Source: Alphaproteobacteria bacterium
GTDB lineage: Bacteria; Pseudomonadota; Alphaproteobacteria; SMXQ01
Direction: 5' to 3'
DNA: 47,763 bases
Assembly: GCA_009380075.1 (NCBI GenBank)
Contig: WHSO01000019.1
Span: 1 to 47,763, forward strand
Under the pieces are notes generated by a model. The model did no database searches and had not been told where the DNA came from. It was given only the letters and a program-made list of their open reading frames with translations. A program made the translations under genes and the position numbers. Positions 4,128 to 9,789 of the stretch are shown piece by piece (position 1 is the first letter of the stretch; every line of letters begins with the position of its first letter).

Positions 4128-4197
4128 AGAAAGGGCGTCAGGCGCGCCCGGACCAAGGACCAAGCGCTTTCTGCCCCGCGAAGGACACCTGACGCCC
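4122..4197 (-). terminator. terminator-like stem ending the candidate RNA
   Basis: Inverted repeat with perfect 10-base arms: GGGCGTCAGG at 4133-4142 and CCTGACGCCC at 4188-4197 on the plus strand. Read on the minus strand the stem closes with GACGCCC followed at once by TTTCTTTAT (4132-4124), as in a Rho-independent terminator. The 45-base interior is longer than usual and contains a tandem GACCAAG repeat (plus strand, 4152-4165). Orientation fits an RNA transcribed leftwards from the 4900s. Confidence 0.5.
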
Positions 4198-4920
4198 CGG
4201 AAGCCCGGAAGCTTCCGGCACGTGAAAGCAGCGGGTAAACCGCCGGACCTTTTCGAACCCTTCCATCGCGTCCCCAGGGAGAGAAGCGACGAGCGGTTGA
4301 ACAGCCGGGCCCTTGCGGGCGTTCACCTGCGGCGAGTCCGCGCATTTCCCCAGCGGTGTTCCCGATCCCTGTCGCGGTAGCGTCTCCGCCCTCCGCCAAG
4401 CGGGGTTGCCCCCGCGCCGCGCCGGCATCGTCCGGGTTGCCCCGTCGAGGCCTTGCGCCGCTCACTCCGGCACCTGCATATCGGAGTTGCCTCCGACGGC
4501 GGCGGAGTCGCCCCCGCCCGGTGTCGGTGCCGTTCGTCGCGGAGACAAGCTCCGTAACGTCCGGCCCTGGATCCGCGCCCGCCCTTCGGCGGGCCGCGTC
4601 CGGGTCCCGCGGTCCTTGGGGAGACCGGAAACCCAAGAGAACACCGGCGAGAGGGTAAATACGTTCCCCTCCGTTCAGCGGCGGGCAGTCCTTGCGAACC
4701 GTCCACGGTCCCGTTCCCTTGCGGGAAAGAAAGCCGCGCCGTCCCCCTCACGGGGGATGGAGCACCGCCAGCGCCAACCCGGCGGGACCTGCCGGCCGAA
4801 GCCAACCTTCCCCCGAGTCTCCGGGAATTGGTCCTGCATCCGGTCCCGACGCCCGGAGGCGGCGGACAAGGACGGAAACCGATCCCGGCACTTTCGCGTA
4901 CCCTGATATGATTCCCCCGA
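4128..4920 (-). ncRNA. candidate large structured non-coding RNA with repeated GNRA-loop hairpins
   Basis: Nearly the whole stretch can be written as consecutive short hairpins. On the minus strand five stems close with a GCAA loop: 4727-4714 (TTCCC/GGGAA), 4496-4481 (TCGGAG/CTCCGA), 4444-4433 (CGGG/CCCG), 4415-4400 (GCGGGG/CCCCGC) and 4320-4309 (GCCC/GGGC, inside an outer TGAAC/GTTCA pair at 4325-4298). A sixth, 4757-4742 (TCCCCC/GGGGGA), closes with GTGA. Further stems are 4795-4779 (CCGGC/GCCGG), 4671-4651 (GAGGG/CCCTC), 4637-4615 (CTTGGG/CCCAAG), 4612-4594 (CCGCG/CGCGG), 4593-4578 (CCCGCC/GGCGGG), 4554-4540 (CGGAG/CTCCG) and 4218-4205 (a 14-base palindrome). It ends at the terminator-like stem 4197-4122. 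GNRA loops form on the minus strand only, which sets the likely strand. The RNase P core GAGGAAAGTCCGG, tmRNA and SRP RNA motifs are absent. The 5' end and promoter are not established; family unknown to me. Confidence 0.5.
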
Positions 4921-4965
4921 GGCGATGCGGACACAAGTCAAAACCCAAGTAATGACGATTTTTCT

Positions 4966-5026
4966 TGTGTATAAAACTGCCGTGCATTCACAACAGATAC
5001 ACAATTTACCCACAAATTTATCCACA
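4966..5026. promoter_or_regulatory. right DnaA-box array
   Basis: A perfect box on the minus strand at 4974-4966 (TTATACACA) is followed by four plus-strand 9-mers: 4984-4992 GCATTCACA (2 mismatches), 4995-5003 AGATACACA (2), 5006-5014 TTACCCACA (1) and 5018-5026 TTATCCACA (perfect). Start-to-start distances of 11, 11 and 12 bases place the four on one face of the helix, with affinity apparently rising towards 5026. An ordered array of weak and strong boxes is typical of bacterial origins. Confidence 0.6.
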
Positions 5027-5355
5027 AGATTGCCGTGCTTTTTTGGGCGCCAATTGTAACCCACTGATTCGTCGGGTCTTTCACCGCGAACTTTTTGCGG
5101 CACCTGCCTTGCGATGAGACCGGCAGGAGAGCGCCCGGGGATGGCGAGTCGACGTTTTCGTAGTGCGTGTATTCTCCAGCACCGTGGTCGGCATGATGCA
5201 GGTGCGACCACTGTTCCTGTGCGGGACCTCAACCTCCCCATTTGGGTCGGACTCCCGGTCCCGGGAATCATTCGCGGTCGCGCGATCCTGGACATCCCGA
5301 GCCGTGGGAATGCGCCGGCGCCGACGCGCTCGCGCAGCAGGTGGCCCGGCTCGCG
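5027..5355. other. intergenic stretch before the sdh promoter, no gene seen
   Basis: No protein gene is supported here. The only structures noted are a 7-base inverted repeat, GTGGTCG (5184-5190) and CGACCAC (5205-5211), a T run at 5039-5044, and CCGC/GCGG arms around a T-rich loop at 5084-5100. It probably separates the candidate origin from the sdh operon promoter. Confidence 0.4.
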
Positions 5356-5384
5356 TTGACTTGGGCGGGGACAGGCGGTAAACC
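5356..5384 (+). promoter_or_regulatory. possible sdh operon promoter
   Basis: TTGACT (5356-5361) lies 17 bases before TAAACC (5379-5384). The -35 is one mismatch from TTGACA; the -10 is weak. Transcription would start near 5391 and give a leader of about 75 bases before sdhC. Judged from sequence only. Confidence 0.35.
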
Positions 5385-5398
5385 GAAGCGCTGTTCCA

Positions 5399-5442
5399 GG
5401 CGCGCCGCCGCCAGCCGGATTCGGAACACGATCCGGCGCGCC
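5399..5442 (+). repeat. long inverted repeat in the sdhC leader
   Basis: GGCGCGCC (5399-5406) and CCGGAT (5415-5420) pair with ATCCGGCGCGCC (5431-5442), giving a two-part stem of 6 and 8 base pairs broken by an eight-base bulge, with a 10-base loop. It ends 24 bases before the sdhC start. It could be a leader structure affecting translation or RNA stability; no T tract follows, so a terminator is unlikely. Confidence 0.6.
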
Positions 5443-5466
5443 CTCCCGATGAATCGAAGGCCCTGC

Positions 5467-5865
5467 ATGGCACGTCACGATCGCCCGCTGTCCCCGCATC
5501 TCCAGGTTTACCGGCTTCCGTTCAACGCCATCCTCTCCATCACCCACCGGATCACCGGGGTCGGACTTGGTTTCGGCGCGCTGATCCTGGTCGCGTGGCT
5601 CGCCGCGGCGGCGGCAGGGCCGGAGTGGTTCGCGACAGCGTCGTCCATGATGGGATCCATCGTCGGGCGGATCGTGCTGTTCGGCTTCGTCTGGGCGCTG
5701 TTCTATCACCTTGCCAACGGCATCCGGCACCTGTTCTGGGACGCCGGCTTCGGCTTCGAGCTCAAGGATGCGCGGTCGTCGGGCCTCATGGTCGTCGCCG
5801 TGTCCCTCGTGCTCACCGCGGTCGCCTTCGCTATCGGCTGTATCCGCGCCGGGGCCATATCATGA
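5467..5865 (+). CDS. sdhC: succinate dehydrogenase cytochrome b556 subunit
   Basis: Membrane anchor of respiratory complex II, helping bind haem b and ubiquinone in the inner membrane. The start MARHDRPLSPHLQVYRLPFNAILSITHRITG is a clear SdhC signature (RPLSPHLQVYR and SITHRITG). Three membrane helices follow, and the haem-ligand region reads ALFYHLANGIRHLFWD. The product has 132 residues, usual for the family. I chose the ATG at 5467 because GAAGG at 5456-5460 is well spaced; an in-frame ATG at 5449 lacks one. The stop overlaps the sdhD start by four bases (ATGA), indicating translational coupling. Confidence 0.95.
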   Translation: MARHDRPLSPHLQVYRLPFNAILSITHRITGVGLGFGALILVAWLAAAAAGPEWFATASSMMGSIVGRIVLFGFVWALFYHLANGIRHLFWDAGFGFELKDARSSGLMVVAVSLVLTAVAFAIGCIRAGAIS

Positions 5866-6260
5866 GTTCGCCCGCGGGAAGCTCCTTTCGCACGCGCCTC
5901 GGGCGCGTACGCGGCCTCGGCTCCGCCAAGGAGGGCACCGCCCATTGGTGGGGCCAGCGCCTGTCGTCGCTCGCCCTGGTGCCGCTCGTGCTCTGGTTCG
6001 CCATCTCGCTGGTTGCGCTGGCCGGGGCGCCGCATGCGGTGGTTGTCGCCTGGATCCGGGGGACGGTTACCACGGTCCTGCTGGTCGTGCTGATCGCCGC
6101 CGTCTTTTATCACCTCGCCCTCGGTCTTCAGGTGGTGGTGGAGGATTACGTTCACACCGAATGGCGGAAGCTTGCCGTCGTCATCGCGATCAAGTTCGCC
6201 TCGGGGCTGGCCGCGCTGATCGGGATTTTCGCCGTGCTACGTATCGCGTTTGGGGCCTGA
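5862..6260 (+). CDS. sdhD: succinate dehydrogenase hydrophobic membrane anchor subunit
   Basis: Second membrane anchor of complex II. The 132-residue protein begins with a basic, Gly/Ser-rich segment (RTRLGRVRGLGSAKEGTAHWW), where the GSAKEGTAHWW motif is typical of alphaproteobacterial SdhD. Three hydrophobic helices follow. FYHLALGLQVVVEDYVH in the second helix holds the conserved His and the quinone-site Asp-Tyr pair. The start overlaps the sdhC stop, and only three bases separate its stop from the sdhA ATG, so C, D and A form one tightly packed transcript. Confidence 0.94.
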   Translation: MSSPAGSSFRTRLGRVRGLGSAKEGTAHWWGQRLSSLALVPLVLWFAISLVALAGAPHAVVVAWIRGTVTTVLLVVLIAAVFYHLALGLQVVVEDYVHTEWRKLAVVIAIKFASGLAALIGIFAVLRIAFGA

Positions 6261-6263
6261 GTC

Positions 6264-8054
6264 ATGAGTGACACTTATCCAATCACCGATCATCATTTCG
6301 ATATCATCGTCGTCGGCGCTGGCGGCGCCGGGCTGCGGGCCACCCTCGGCATGACCGCCGCAGGGCTCAATACCGCCTGCATCACCAAGGTGTTCCCGAC
6401 CCGCAGCCATACCGTCGCCGCCCAGGGTGGGGTCGCCGCCGCGCTCGGCAATATCGAGCCCGACGACTGGCGCTTCCACATGTACGACACGGTCAAGGGC
6501 TCGGACTGGCTCGGCGACCAGGATGCCATCGAATACATGGTGCGGAATGCTGTCACCGCCGTGACCGAACTCGAGCATCTGGGCGTGCCGTTCTCGCGCA
6601 CAGCGGAAGGCAAGATCTACCAGCGCCCGTTCGGCGGCCATACGGTGAATTACGGCGAGAAACTCGCACACCGCGCCAACGCCGCCGCCGACCGCACCGG
6701 CCATGCCATCCTGCACACGCTGTACCAGCAGTGCCTGAAGCACAAGGCGCAATTCTTCATCGAATACTTCGCTATCGACCTGATCATGTCCGAGGACGGG
6801 CGCTGCCTCGGCGTCATGGCGTGGGACCTCGACGACGGCAGCCTCCACCGCTTCACCGCCGAAGTAACCGTGCTGGCGACGGGTGGGTACGGGCGCGCGT
6901 TTTTTTCCTGCACCTCGGCCCATACCTGCACCGGCGATGGAAACGGCATGGTGCTGCACGCGGGGCTTCCCCTCCAGGACATGGAGTTCGTCCAGTTCCA
7001 CCCCACCGGAATTTACGGGTCCGGGTGCCTGATCACCGAGGGCGCGCGCGGCGAGGGCGGCTACGTCACCAATTCCGAGGGCGAGCGCTTCATGGAACGT
7101 TATGCGCCGACGGTGAAGGACCTCGCCTCGCGCGACGTGGTCTCGCGATCCATGACCGTGGAAATCCGCGAAGGGCGCGGCGTCGGTCCCGACAAGGACC
7201 ACATCTACCTGCACCTGGAGCACCTCGACCCCGACCTCCTGCACGAACGCCTGCCCGGCATTTCCGAGACGGCGAAGATCTTTGCCGGGGTCGACGTGAC
7301 GAAGGAGCCGATCCCCGTCCTGCCGACGGTGCATTACAACATGGGCGGCATCCCGACCAACTACCATGGAGAGGTCATCAACCCGACCGCCGACGATCCC
7401 GACCGGGTGGTGCCGGGCCTGATGGCGATCGGGGAGGCGGCCTGCGTCTCCGTCCATGGCGCCAACCGGCTCGGTTGCAATTCGCTCCTCGACATCGTCG
7501 TGTTCGGCCGTGCTGCGGCGCTGCGGGCGGCGGAGGTGGTCAAGCCCGGCAGCCGCCGGCCGAGGCTGCCCAAGGATGCGGGGGAACAGGCCATCGCCCG
7601 CCTCGACCGTCTGCGCCACGCCGATGGTGCGCGCCTGACCAGTGAAATCCGGGTCGACATGCAGCGCACCATGCAGAACGACTGTGCCGTGTTCCGCACC
7701 TCCAAGGTGCTGGCGGACGGCTGCCGGAACATCGATCGCATCGCAGGGACCCTTGGCGACATCCGGGTCAACGATCGCTCGATGATCTGGAACTCCGACC
7801 TGGTCGAGGCGCTCGAGCTCGAGAACCTCATGGGCCAGGCGGTGGTCACGATGCATTCGGCGGAGGCCCGGCACGAAAGCCGGGGCGCCCATGCCCACGA
7901 GGACTACCCGAAGCGAGACGACGAAAACTGGATGAAGCATTCGGTAGCGTATCTCGACGGCACCAGCGACATCCGGCTCGTCTACCGTCCGGTGCATCTC
8001 AAGACGCTCAGCGACGACATCGAAACCATCCCGCCCAAGGAGCGGGTGTACTAA
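6264..8054 (+). CDS. sdhA: succinate dehydrogenase flavoprotein subunit
   Basis: Catalytic FAD subunit that oxidises succinate to fumarate on the cytoplasmic face of complex II. The 596-residue protein has the FAD-binding motif [13 protein letters not shown] (about residues 14-26) and the covalent flavin His at residue 49 in [11 protein letters not shown]. Substrate-side segments include [23 protein letters not shown], and [10 protein letters not shown] and [21 protein letters not shown] are the capping and FAD segments. The C-terminus ends in YRPVHLKTL...IPPKERVY, usual for alphaproteobacteria. Normally sdhB follows directly; here an AT-richer gene lies between them. An AAGGAG at 8038-8043 within the last codons may be the original ribosome site of sdhB, now displaced (inference). 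Confidence 0.98.
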
Positions 8055-8062
8055 GTGCTGTG

Positions 8063-9007
8063 ATGTCTGCGGCACCAATGAAACATTTGGAACGCCGGTA
8101 CAATTCCAAACTGATTCAGCAGTTACCCCTATACCCTCATGTTGATTTCGATATGACTCTTTCGACTGAGTGGTGGCCGGTTGGCGTAAGCGCGAGATAC
8201 CACGATGAATTTATTCGTAGGGTGGCAGCAGGCGCATCTTCCGCGTTGTTGAACATTAGTTCTGTTGATTACGTTTTGAAGCGCTACGTAAAGCAAATTT
8301 CGTATGATGCTAACGTTCCCGACCGTCTCGATTTTCGCATCTCTGATTGTGTTAGAGAGCTTTCTGGAAGTATCGATAATGCCGTTCGCGGATTTGGTGA
8401 TAGAAATGATCAACCAGTTGGCGAATTCATGTCGGAAGTGACGTTCGTTCGCCTGGTCTTCGCTTTCAGTGCAATGCTGACACTTTCAAATAGGGGCTAC
8501 TTATATGAGACAGCGGCTGTTGCCCGTATGGCTCTTGAGCAGATCGCTTGGGCTTTTGTCGCAAAAAGTCACCATTCGTATGAGGTAGTACGAAATTTAT
8601 CGGCAACCCACTCCATCGGGAGGTTGAAGGTCGTTTATCCTACTGCTGGTAGATACTATCACTGGCTGTCAGAACATTCGCATTGGGCTTACAACGCACA
8701 TGTGAAGACACTCTCTTCAAGTGAAGGGTTGATTAAGGCATTGGGTGCGTCTTGCGGGTATAAGGCAGCTTCGCTTTTAGCCACTCTCATTTGTTTAGAT
8801 TGTTGCTTGGCGGCTTTCGAAGCGGTCTTTGGTGACAAAGTTGCGAAGTTTCATGTGCTGAAGCGCCTCAAAAGTGGAGGCTATGAAATTAAGCGTCGTC
8901 GTAGAACACTAGCTTTGTTCAATGAAGTTTTGCGCCTTAGTAAGTCTGTTCAGGAAATCAAAGGGTTGAAACCATTGATGCCAGTCACAATGTCGATTAA
9001 AGGATAG
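8063..9007 (+). CDS. hypothetical protein of foreign composition inserted between sdhA and sdhB
   Basis: A 314-residue protein I do not recognise. It begins 8 bases after the sdhA stop; a GTG lies directly before the ATG at 8063, and an ATG at 8080 is also possible. Base composition differs sharply from its neighbours: 8281-8340 has 28 G+C of 60, against 43 of 60 in sdhB at 9241-9300. Codon use is correspondingly rich in A- and T-ending codons. The sequence is mixed alpha-helical without a signal peptide. Features are an Arg-Leu-Val-Phe-Ala-Phe helix at about residue 130, an [15 protein letters not shown] helix, a [12 protein letters not shown] motif with several His/Trp, a hydrophobic Cys-containing helix ([18 protein letters not shown]) and a basic KRRRR patch. 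The His-rich motif recalls the loosely defined DUF5677-like group, but that is a weak impression. The frame is intact over 945 bases, arguing for a functional acquired gene. Confidence 0.8.
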
Positions 9008-9012
9008 TATTC

Positions 9013-9789
9013 ATGGCCGAGTTCACCCTGCCGAAGAACTCCCGGGTCGAGAAGGGCAAGACCTTCAAGGCGCCGGACGGCGCTACGAACGTCAGGACCT
9101 TCCAGGTCTACCGCTGGGATCCGGACAGCGCCAACAACCCGCGCATCGATTCCTACGAGGTCGACCTCGACGCCTGCGGGCCGATGGTCCTCGATGCGCT
9201 GATCAAGATCAAGAATGAGGTCGACTCGACCCTGACCTTCCGACGCTCCTGCCGCGAGGGCGTGTGCGGCTCCTGCGCCATGAACGTGGACGGCACCAAC
9301 ACACTGTCCTGCACCAAGCCGATCGAGGACATCAAGGGCGCCGCCAACGTTTACCCGCTGCCCCACTTGCCGGTGGTCAAGGACCTGGTGCCGGACCTGT
9401 CGATCCCCTATGCGCAATACGCCGCGATCGAACCCTGGCTCAAGACGGAGAACCCGGCGCCCACCGGCGAACGCCTGCAGAGCCCCGAAGAACGCAAGCA
9501 ACTCGACGGGTTGTGGGAATGCATCCTGTGCTTCTGCTGCACGACGTCCTGCCCGAGCTACTGGTGGAACGGGGAGCGCTTCCTCGGTCCGGCGGTGCTG
9601 CTGCAGTCCTACCGCTGGATCGCCGATTCGCGCGACGAGCACACCGGCGAGCGGCTGGACGCGCTGGAAGACCCCTTCCGCCTGTACCGCTGCCACACGA
9701 TCATGAACTGCACCGACACCTGCCCCAAGAGCCTCAACCCGGCCAAGGCCATCGGAGAAATCAAGAAGTTGATGGTGGAGCGTAAATAG
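9013..9789 (+). CDS. sdhB: succinate dehydrogenase iron-sulfur subunit
   Basis: Carries electrons from SdhA to ubiquinone through three iron-sulfur clusters. The 258-residue protein has the [2Fe-2S] cysteines at 80, 85, 88 and 100 ([12 protein letters not shown] ... LSC). The [4Fe-4S]/[3Fe-4S] cysteines are at 170, 173, 176 and 180 ([11 protein letters not shown]) and at 227, 233 and 237 ([11 protein letters not shown]). The first nine residues AEFTLPKNS are typical of alphaproteobacterial SdhB. The current ribosome site is AAAGGA just before the ATG at 9013, within the last codons of the inserted gene, so its expression now depends on read-through across that gene or on a promoter inside it. 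Confidence 0.98.

Follow-up and report, generated by a model that had tools for sequence, protein, structure and literature searches.

Defence genes are usually sought in islands, prophages and integrase-bearing hotspots, and the protein DitA of the Aditi system works with DitB. Aditi counts among the defence-island systems with mechanism unknown (PMC12926258). The locus described here is a single gene encoding a protein of 314 amino acids (aa), inserted between sdhA and sdhB in a 47,763-nucleotide stretch of DNA that was analyzed at its full length (the window). With the DitA gene of genome G091 it shares a likeness to DUF5677, AT richness and a position just past the stop codon of a core gene, which in G091 is purD; DitA, however, is ∼500 aa long, and the window protein has neither a DitA match nor a partner gene. 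At L173 (G091, 6414 to 9434), the AT-rich DitA-like gene lies directly past purD on a contig that ends shortly after, and it matches PADLOC DitA (PDLC03826, Aditi) near full length (E = 1.2e-57; DUF5677 domain at residues 335 to 453). No PADLOC DitA match was obtained for the window protein or the homologues scanned. A second comparison is with integrase-borne defence islands and integration hotspots such as guaA 3' ends: one member of the family lies directly past guaA, but what the window holds is one gene, within an operon, that comes with no integrase, attachment repeat or further cargo. Phage and organelle homing endonucleases of the free-standing kind are likewise single genes of sporadic occurrence at one conserved seam, but none of the known endonuclease folds or motifs is seen in the window protein. 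DUF5677 proteins themselves, for which open-access papers yielded one passing mention only, are also all-helical, and their R-x3-E helix and later S..H motif align with those of the window family; the latter differs in its own N-terminal S-x-D-x5-Y block and L-S-x3-H-W-x4-H signature, and in sitting at a fixed core-operon seam. Finally, the HEPN superfamily (AbiV, sacsin HEPN, MNT-HEPN) is represented among the best structural matches of two separate predicted models, although these were low-confidence models with Z of 6.5 to 8.4 and the window family lacks Rx4-6H. HEPN families in which Rx4-6H is lost or altered do exist, such as AbiV, which lacks the H (PMC3710099).

The sdh operon of the window runs on the plus strand from sdhC (5455 to 5865; Pfam Sdh_cyt) through a presumed sdhD (5867 to 6260; assigned on position and hydrophobicity, with no Pfam match) to sdhA, which encodes the flavoprotein subunit and forms the left flank of the insertion (6264 to 8054; Pfam FAD_binding_2 and Succ_DH_flav_C), and sdhB, which encodes the iron-sulfur subunit and forms the right flank (9013 to 9789; Pfam Fer2_3 and Fer4). 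Between them, also on the plus strand, the inserted gene (8063 to 9007) is an intact frame of 314 codons with an ATG at 8063, an in-frame GTG at 8060 and a further ATG at 8078. The TAA stop of sdhA ends at 8054, leaving a left seam of 8 bases (8055 to 8062) without a clear Shine-Dalgarno sequence, and a right seam of 5 bases (9008 to 9012) separates the stop of the insert from the sdhB ATG at 9013. The gene stands out in GC content (0.461, against 0.654 for sdhA and 0.640 for sdhB), in GC3 (0.451, against 0.858 and 0.911) and in a codon-adaptation-like index (0.33, against 0.78 and 0.81); in 600-base bins, GC falls below 0.50 nowhere in the 47.8-kb window except in the inserted gene. Coordinates and GC thus confirm the intact low-GC frame, 8 bases past sdhA and 5 ahead of sdhB, that had been described from the sequence alone. 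That earlier reading had also proposed that the insert supplies the ribosome site of sdhB and keeps the operon, and the sequence fits this: a Shine-Dalgarno-like AAAGGA within the 3' end of the insert (8999 to 9004, plus strand), 8 bases ahead of the sdhB ATG, could serve such a function. No terminator-like or promoter-like sites around the inserted gene exceeded those in shuffled sequence, and the lack of a clear Shine-Dalgarno sequence at the left seam makes translational coupling of the insert to sdhA termination plausible.

Horizontal acquisition of the gene is well supported. A same-genus relative (G001), in which SdhA and SdhB are both ∼88% identical to those of the window, has a sdhA-sdhB gap of 12 bp and no copy of the insert, which marks the inserted gene as an acquisition, and gaps were short in the remaining family relatives examined. 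The class is taken to be Alphaproteobacteria: guaA of G049, a genome of this class, has its best match in Azospirillum, and those homologue records that bear names are from Hyphomicrobiales. When junctions were surveyed across the class (a broad, non-random genome sample), the median sdhA-sdhB gap was 29 bp among 129 genomes with a resolved junction, of which 103 had gaps of ≤60 bp and 12, the window counted, had gaps of >200 bp. Of 385 class genomes, three gave any match to the window protein, namely that of the window itself, G049, and G117 with one marginal 78-aa match (E = 7.6e-4) within a 753-aa frame. Foreign codon use and the short gaps in the same genus and other relatives therefore uphold the acquisition that the sequence-only reading had proposed and, with foreign codons and matches in so few genomes, the gene is not an order-wide member of the sdh operon with matching codon use. 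Compared across relatives, the junction is empty in the nearest ones and is also filled repeatedly by homologues elsewhere.

Genome-wide sequence searches recovered five homologues, all of them AT-rich and 25 to 30% identical to the window protein, four of which also lie between sdhA and sdhB (L038, L044, L167 and L169, in Hyphomicrobiales-type genomes). The fifth, found among the 385 class genomes in G049 (30% identical), lies 26 bp past the guaA stop, and the sdhA-sdhB gap of that genome is 24 bp. Variability at the guaA 3' end is seen within the G049 genus, where L162 (G176) and L163 (G272) have no DUF5677-like gene at this position; past guaA, L162 has a minus-strand gene with NOV_C (PF13020) and L163 encodes a similar-looking protein, also on the minus strand. 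A degenerate DNA pattern for YPx5Yx2LSx3HWx[YF]x2H, made by hand from the window and G049 proteins and applied to 84,980 species, each represented by one genome, gave seven matches; five had arisen by chance, with no protein to match, and two were true homologues, L038 (a Methylocystaceae MAG) and L044 (a Hyphomicrobiales MAG), both between sdhA and sdhB. Profile searches in relatives of the L038 and L044 genomes then yielded L167 (G753) and L169 (G900), again both between sdhA and sdhB; these searches were centred on relatives of gene-bearing genomes, yet whole genomes were scanned and the searches were blind to position. Searches with single sequences found no relatives in viral contigs, plasmids, phages or genome contigs, and neither did a search of viral contigs with a two-sequence alignment. 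The family is known from six members only, and five of the six, the window counted, occupy one seam on the coding strand of the sdh operon. All five (window, L038, L044, L167 and L169) are lone genes directly bordered by sdhA and sdhB, and GC is 0.45 to 0.49 in the occupants at sdh compared to 0.58 to 0.64 in their sdh flanks. Entry into this seam on repeated occasions, without integrase, repeats or partner gene, is well supported. In open-access papers, no literature on bacterial genes between sdhA and sdhB was found, and no description of such a site-locked insertion habit. The gene behind guaA, together with DitA behind purD, suggests a broader tendency to land directly past core-gene stop codons.

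The protein is best read as highly divergent, DUF5677-like and HEPN-like, and helical throughout. The Pfam DUF5677 profile (PF18928) matched the window protein at 15.0 bits (E = 0.026), under the gathering cut-off of 27.1 bits, and gave a signal in two of the four family members tested. When a four-member profile was aligned with hhalign to a set of five bona fide DUF5677 proteins, the score was 29.5 (E = 0.0026, probability only 11.5%), compared to 11.6 to 18.0 for ten column-shuffled controls and one reversed control. In this alignment the family-invariant residues R155, E159 and H207 pair with the invariant R88, E92 and H188 of the DUF5677 set. R155 and E159 delimit an R-x3-E (codons 155 to 159; 8525 to 8539, plus strand) that is unchanged across aligned homologues, and H207 belongs to the family signature L-S-x3-H-W-x4-H (codons 202 to 213; 8666 to 8701, plus strand). 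Frames are intact and residues invariant among homologues that are only 25 to 30% identical, which shows purifying selection. AlphaFold models were all-helical and weak (window, mean pLDDT 50 and pTM 0.57; L044, pLDDT 60 and pTM 0.66). With VIA-align, sacsin HEPN was the top match of the low-confidence L044 model (Z 8.4, rmsd 3.1, 120/139 residues) and the second match of the likewise low-confidence window model (Z 7.5, 124/139 residues), for which a nucleotidyltransferase-like protein (Z 7.2) and AbiV (Z 6.5) were also returned. Foldseek searches with both models (PDB, BFVD) gave nothing significant, and a profile search among PDB sequences gave nothing. The relation to HEPN is best treated as a lead from predicted structures, as Z of 6 to 8 for helical bundles can arise by chance. 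An alignment of five members contained no conserved HEPN Rx4-6H motif, with L-S-x3-H at the possible motif position.

A further explanation, for which the HEPN-like fold hinted at by the models speaks, is a toxin or stress effector (HEPN-type, ribonuclease-like) that acts alone, would halt growth under stress other than phage attack and has its transcription tied to respiration. Genes of toxin-antitoxin type do occur elsewhere at the seam (VapD, and DUF4258 with a YgiT/MqsA-like gene), but the window has no partner antitoxin gene, the catalytic Rx4-6H is absent and a free toxin made constantly from the sdh operon would come at a high cost, so we regard this explanation as unlikely. A type II toxin-antitoxin pair is ruled out by the presence of one gene only between sdhA and sdhB.

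By our analysis, there is about an even chance that the inserted gene is a stand-alone effector of anti-phage or abortive-infection type. The case for defence is circumstantial and draws on association and fold. At L172 (G101, 4162 to 8075), a DUF5677 cousin has a TIR-domain gene and a tyrosine integrase as neighbours, and another cousin among the class genomes shares a stretch that bears an integrase with a KAP NTPase gene. The sequence-only reading had named defence or stress as one possible role; DUF5677 cousins and HEPN-like models lend this circumstantial support, but PADLOC, PHROG and NCBIfam held no direct defence match for the family itself. The DUF5677 cousins occur in integrase islands or as DitA, and the window family is found mostly (5/6) at the sdh seam. 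The L172 locus resembles a small defence island.

The overall picture that we favor, a promoterless single-gene defence cargo riding the sdh operon, is one that we would expect to prove right about as often as wrong. Under this proposal, the insert would have no promoter of its own and would be made from the sdh transcript, its translation would probably be coupled at the sdhA stop, and its 3' end would donate the ribosome site of sdhB, so that core respiration would be preserved and the cargo always expressed. Spread could occur through DNA carrying sdhA'-X-'sdhB, recombining by way of the highly conserved sdh flanks. The effector, akin to HEPN-superfamily effectors such as AbiV, would stay silent until infection and would have its putative working site in the invariant R/E/H/W residues. 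A wider version, in which self-sufficient, integrase-free mobile immune genes target the sdhA-sdhB junction and a few core-gene ends (guaA) and are swapped between lineages base-exactly, is possible, though we hold it to be rather doubtful; if true, immunity in the form of exchangeable single genes would have a universal landing site, and a promoter, in an essential respiratory operon.

Comparison of closely related filled loci shows occupants being replaced INDEPENDENTLY of their sdh flanks. The hosts of L038 and L169 have SdhA/SdhB that are 96% identical (92 to 94% at the DNA level) around occupants that are 26% identical, and blastn similarity between the two loci stops one base past the sdhA stop and restarts at the sdhB ATG. 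Between L167 and L169, the occupants are 52% identical and the SDH proteins 79% and 72%. A sdhAB tree of six taxa supported L038 with L169 (100/100) and L044 with L167 (98/97), and in AU tests the insert data rejected both groupings (p 0.0005 and p 0.002, respectively). The nearest empty relatives of L038, namely G882 (SdhB 97% identical to that of L038), G880 and G881, have an empty seam of 1 bp, and in the flank tree G882 adjoins L169, nested between two filled loci. Vertical inheritance with sdhA/B is ruled out by these empty sisters and the AU tests. The simplest history is one of separate acquisitions of distinct family members at one base-exact seam, with the window as another independent case. 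Near-identical flanks around unrelated alleles would allow a direct test of precise single-gene insertion without integrases.

A search for an imported tract beside the insert gave none for the L038 and L169 flanks, where SDH identity is even up to the seam (identity between the two is slightly higher in the final 100 bp of sdhA, an excess on which no weight was placed). Simple recombination with DNA from a distant donor does not explain flanks that lack an imported tract, which leaves room for a homing-like process. No recombinase gene lies between the flanks; inverted repeats were absent from the window and L038, with direct repeats at chance level only, and comparison of empty with filled sites revealed no target duplication, conserved ends or shared terminal motif. 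The lack of recombinase, terminal repeats and target duplication speaks against a transposon, an integron cassette and an integrative element. A selfish gene of homing type, whose protein, alone or with a host nuclease, breaks the empty seam so that repair copies the gene in, would account for a single position being hit time after time with neither integrase nor repeats involved, and the insertion does have the expected look, being site-locked, repeated, single-gene and sporadic, within conserved sequence that is empty in relatives. In G225, the seam is filled by an AT-rich gene that is unrelated and includes a GIY-YIG-like stretch, a weak similarity. Nevertheless, no nuclease family is recognised in the DUF5677-like protein, and LAGLIDADG, HNH, GIY-YIG and PD-D/ExK domains had no profile match in the window protein (Pfam, PHROGs, NCBIfam, PADLOC), although a nuclease fold of a new kind is conceivable. 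As one member is located at guaA, many unrelated genes also fill the seam, and neither a shared terminal motif nor a target duplication is present, we judge homing to be distinctly unlikely.

Unrelated genes fill the seam in ∼9% of surveyed genomes, as would be expected if the seam were merely permissive and the gene a neutral passenger, random horizontally acquired DNA with no selected function there. Among these occupants are a 364-bp insert in L098 (G255) encoding a VapD-family protein (PDB VapD, E 4e-14; NCBIfam VapD, 3e-17, below cut-off), a 769-bp insert in L083 (G097) where a gene for DUF4258 and one for a YgiT-type zinc finger/MqsA-like protein together have the look of a toxin-antitoxin pair, and a 738-bp AT-rich insert in L109 (G225; GC 0.46, against 0.65) encoding the 233-aa protein with the GIY-YIG-like stretch, for which profile support was weak only (a region of PRK07883, E 9e-4). 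Against a neutral passenger stand the intact frames and invariant residues at 25 to 30% identity, a mark of purifying selection, and the fact that permissiveness alone does not explain why a rare family has five of its six members at one seam, and we find it quite improbable. Most improbable of all is an SDH assembly, protection or regulatory factor, useful only beside sdhA/sdhB and gained and lost many times: five of six members do lie within the sdh operon on its coding strand, but the gene is missing in almost all relatives (including a sister species with 97% identical SdhB), is foreign in composition, has occupants 26% identical beside SDH 96% identical, and in G049 sits past guaA while that genome's own sdhA-sdhB gap is 24 bp.

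What the locus offers is a rare protein family, found by sequence alone, that recurs in one essential respiratory operon seam while sister species are empty. If the favored reading of a single-gene cargo is confirmed, core operon seams would be an overlooked reservoir of mobile single-gene cargo, and such cargo could be searched for simply, by looking for AT-rich lone genes that interrupt conserved pairs of operon neighbours.

The seam is a recurrent docking site for cargo genes, and its occupants are not all defence-like. Five further filled sdhA-sdhB junctions were L025 (G020), L135 (G163), L148 (G032), L128 (G130) and L032 (G044), and their contents comprise a DUF2442 gene with a DUF4160-looking neighbour, an FkbM methyltransferase, a 276-aa protein and two small exported proteins; the FkbM methyltransferase and the small exported proteins are those without a defence-like character. 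Separately, the sdhA-sdhB gaps of L076 (G193) and L146 (G081), 187 and 166 bp long, are GC-rich and have repeat-like translations (SLSLPRKGGG...), and are perhaps copies of a dispersed small repeat element.
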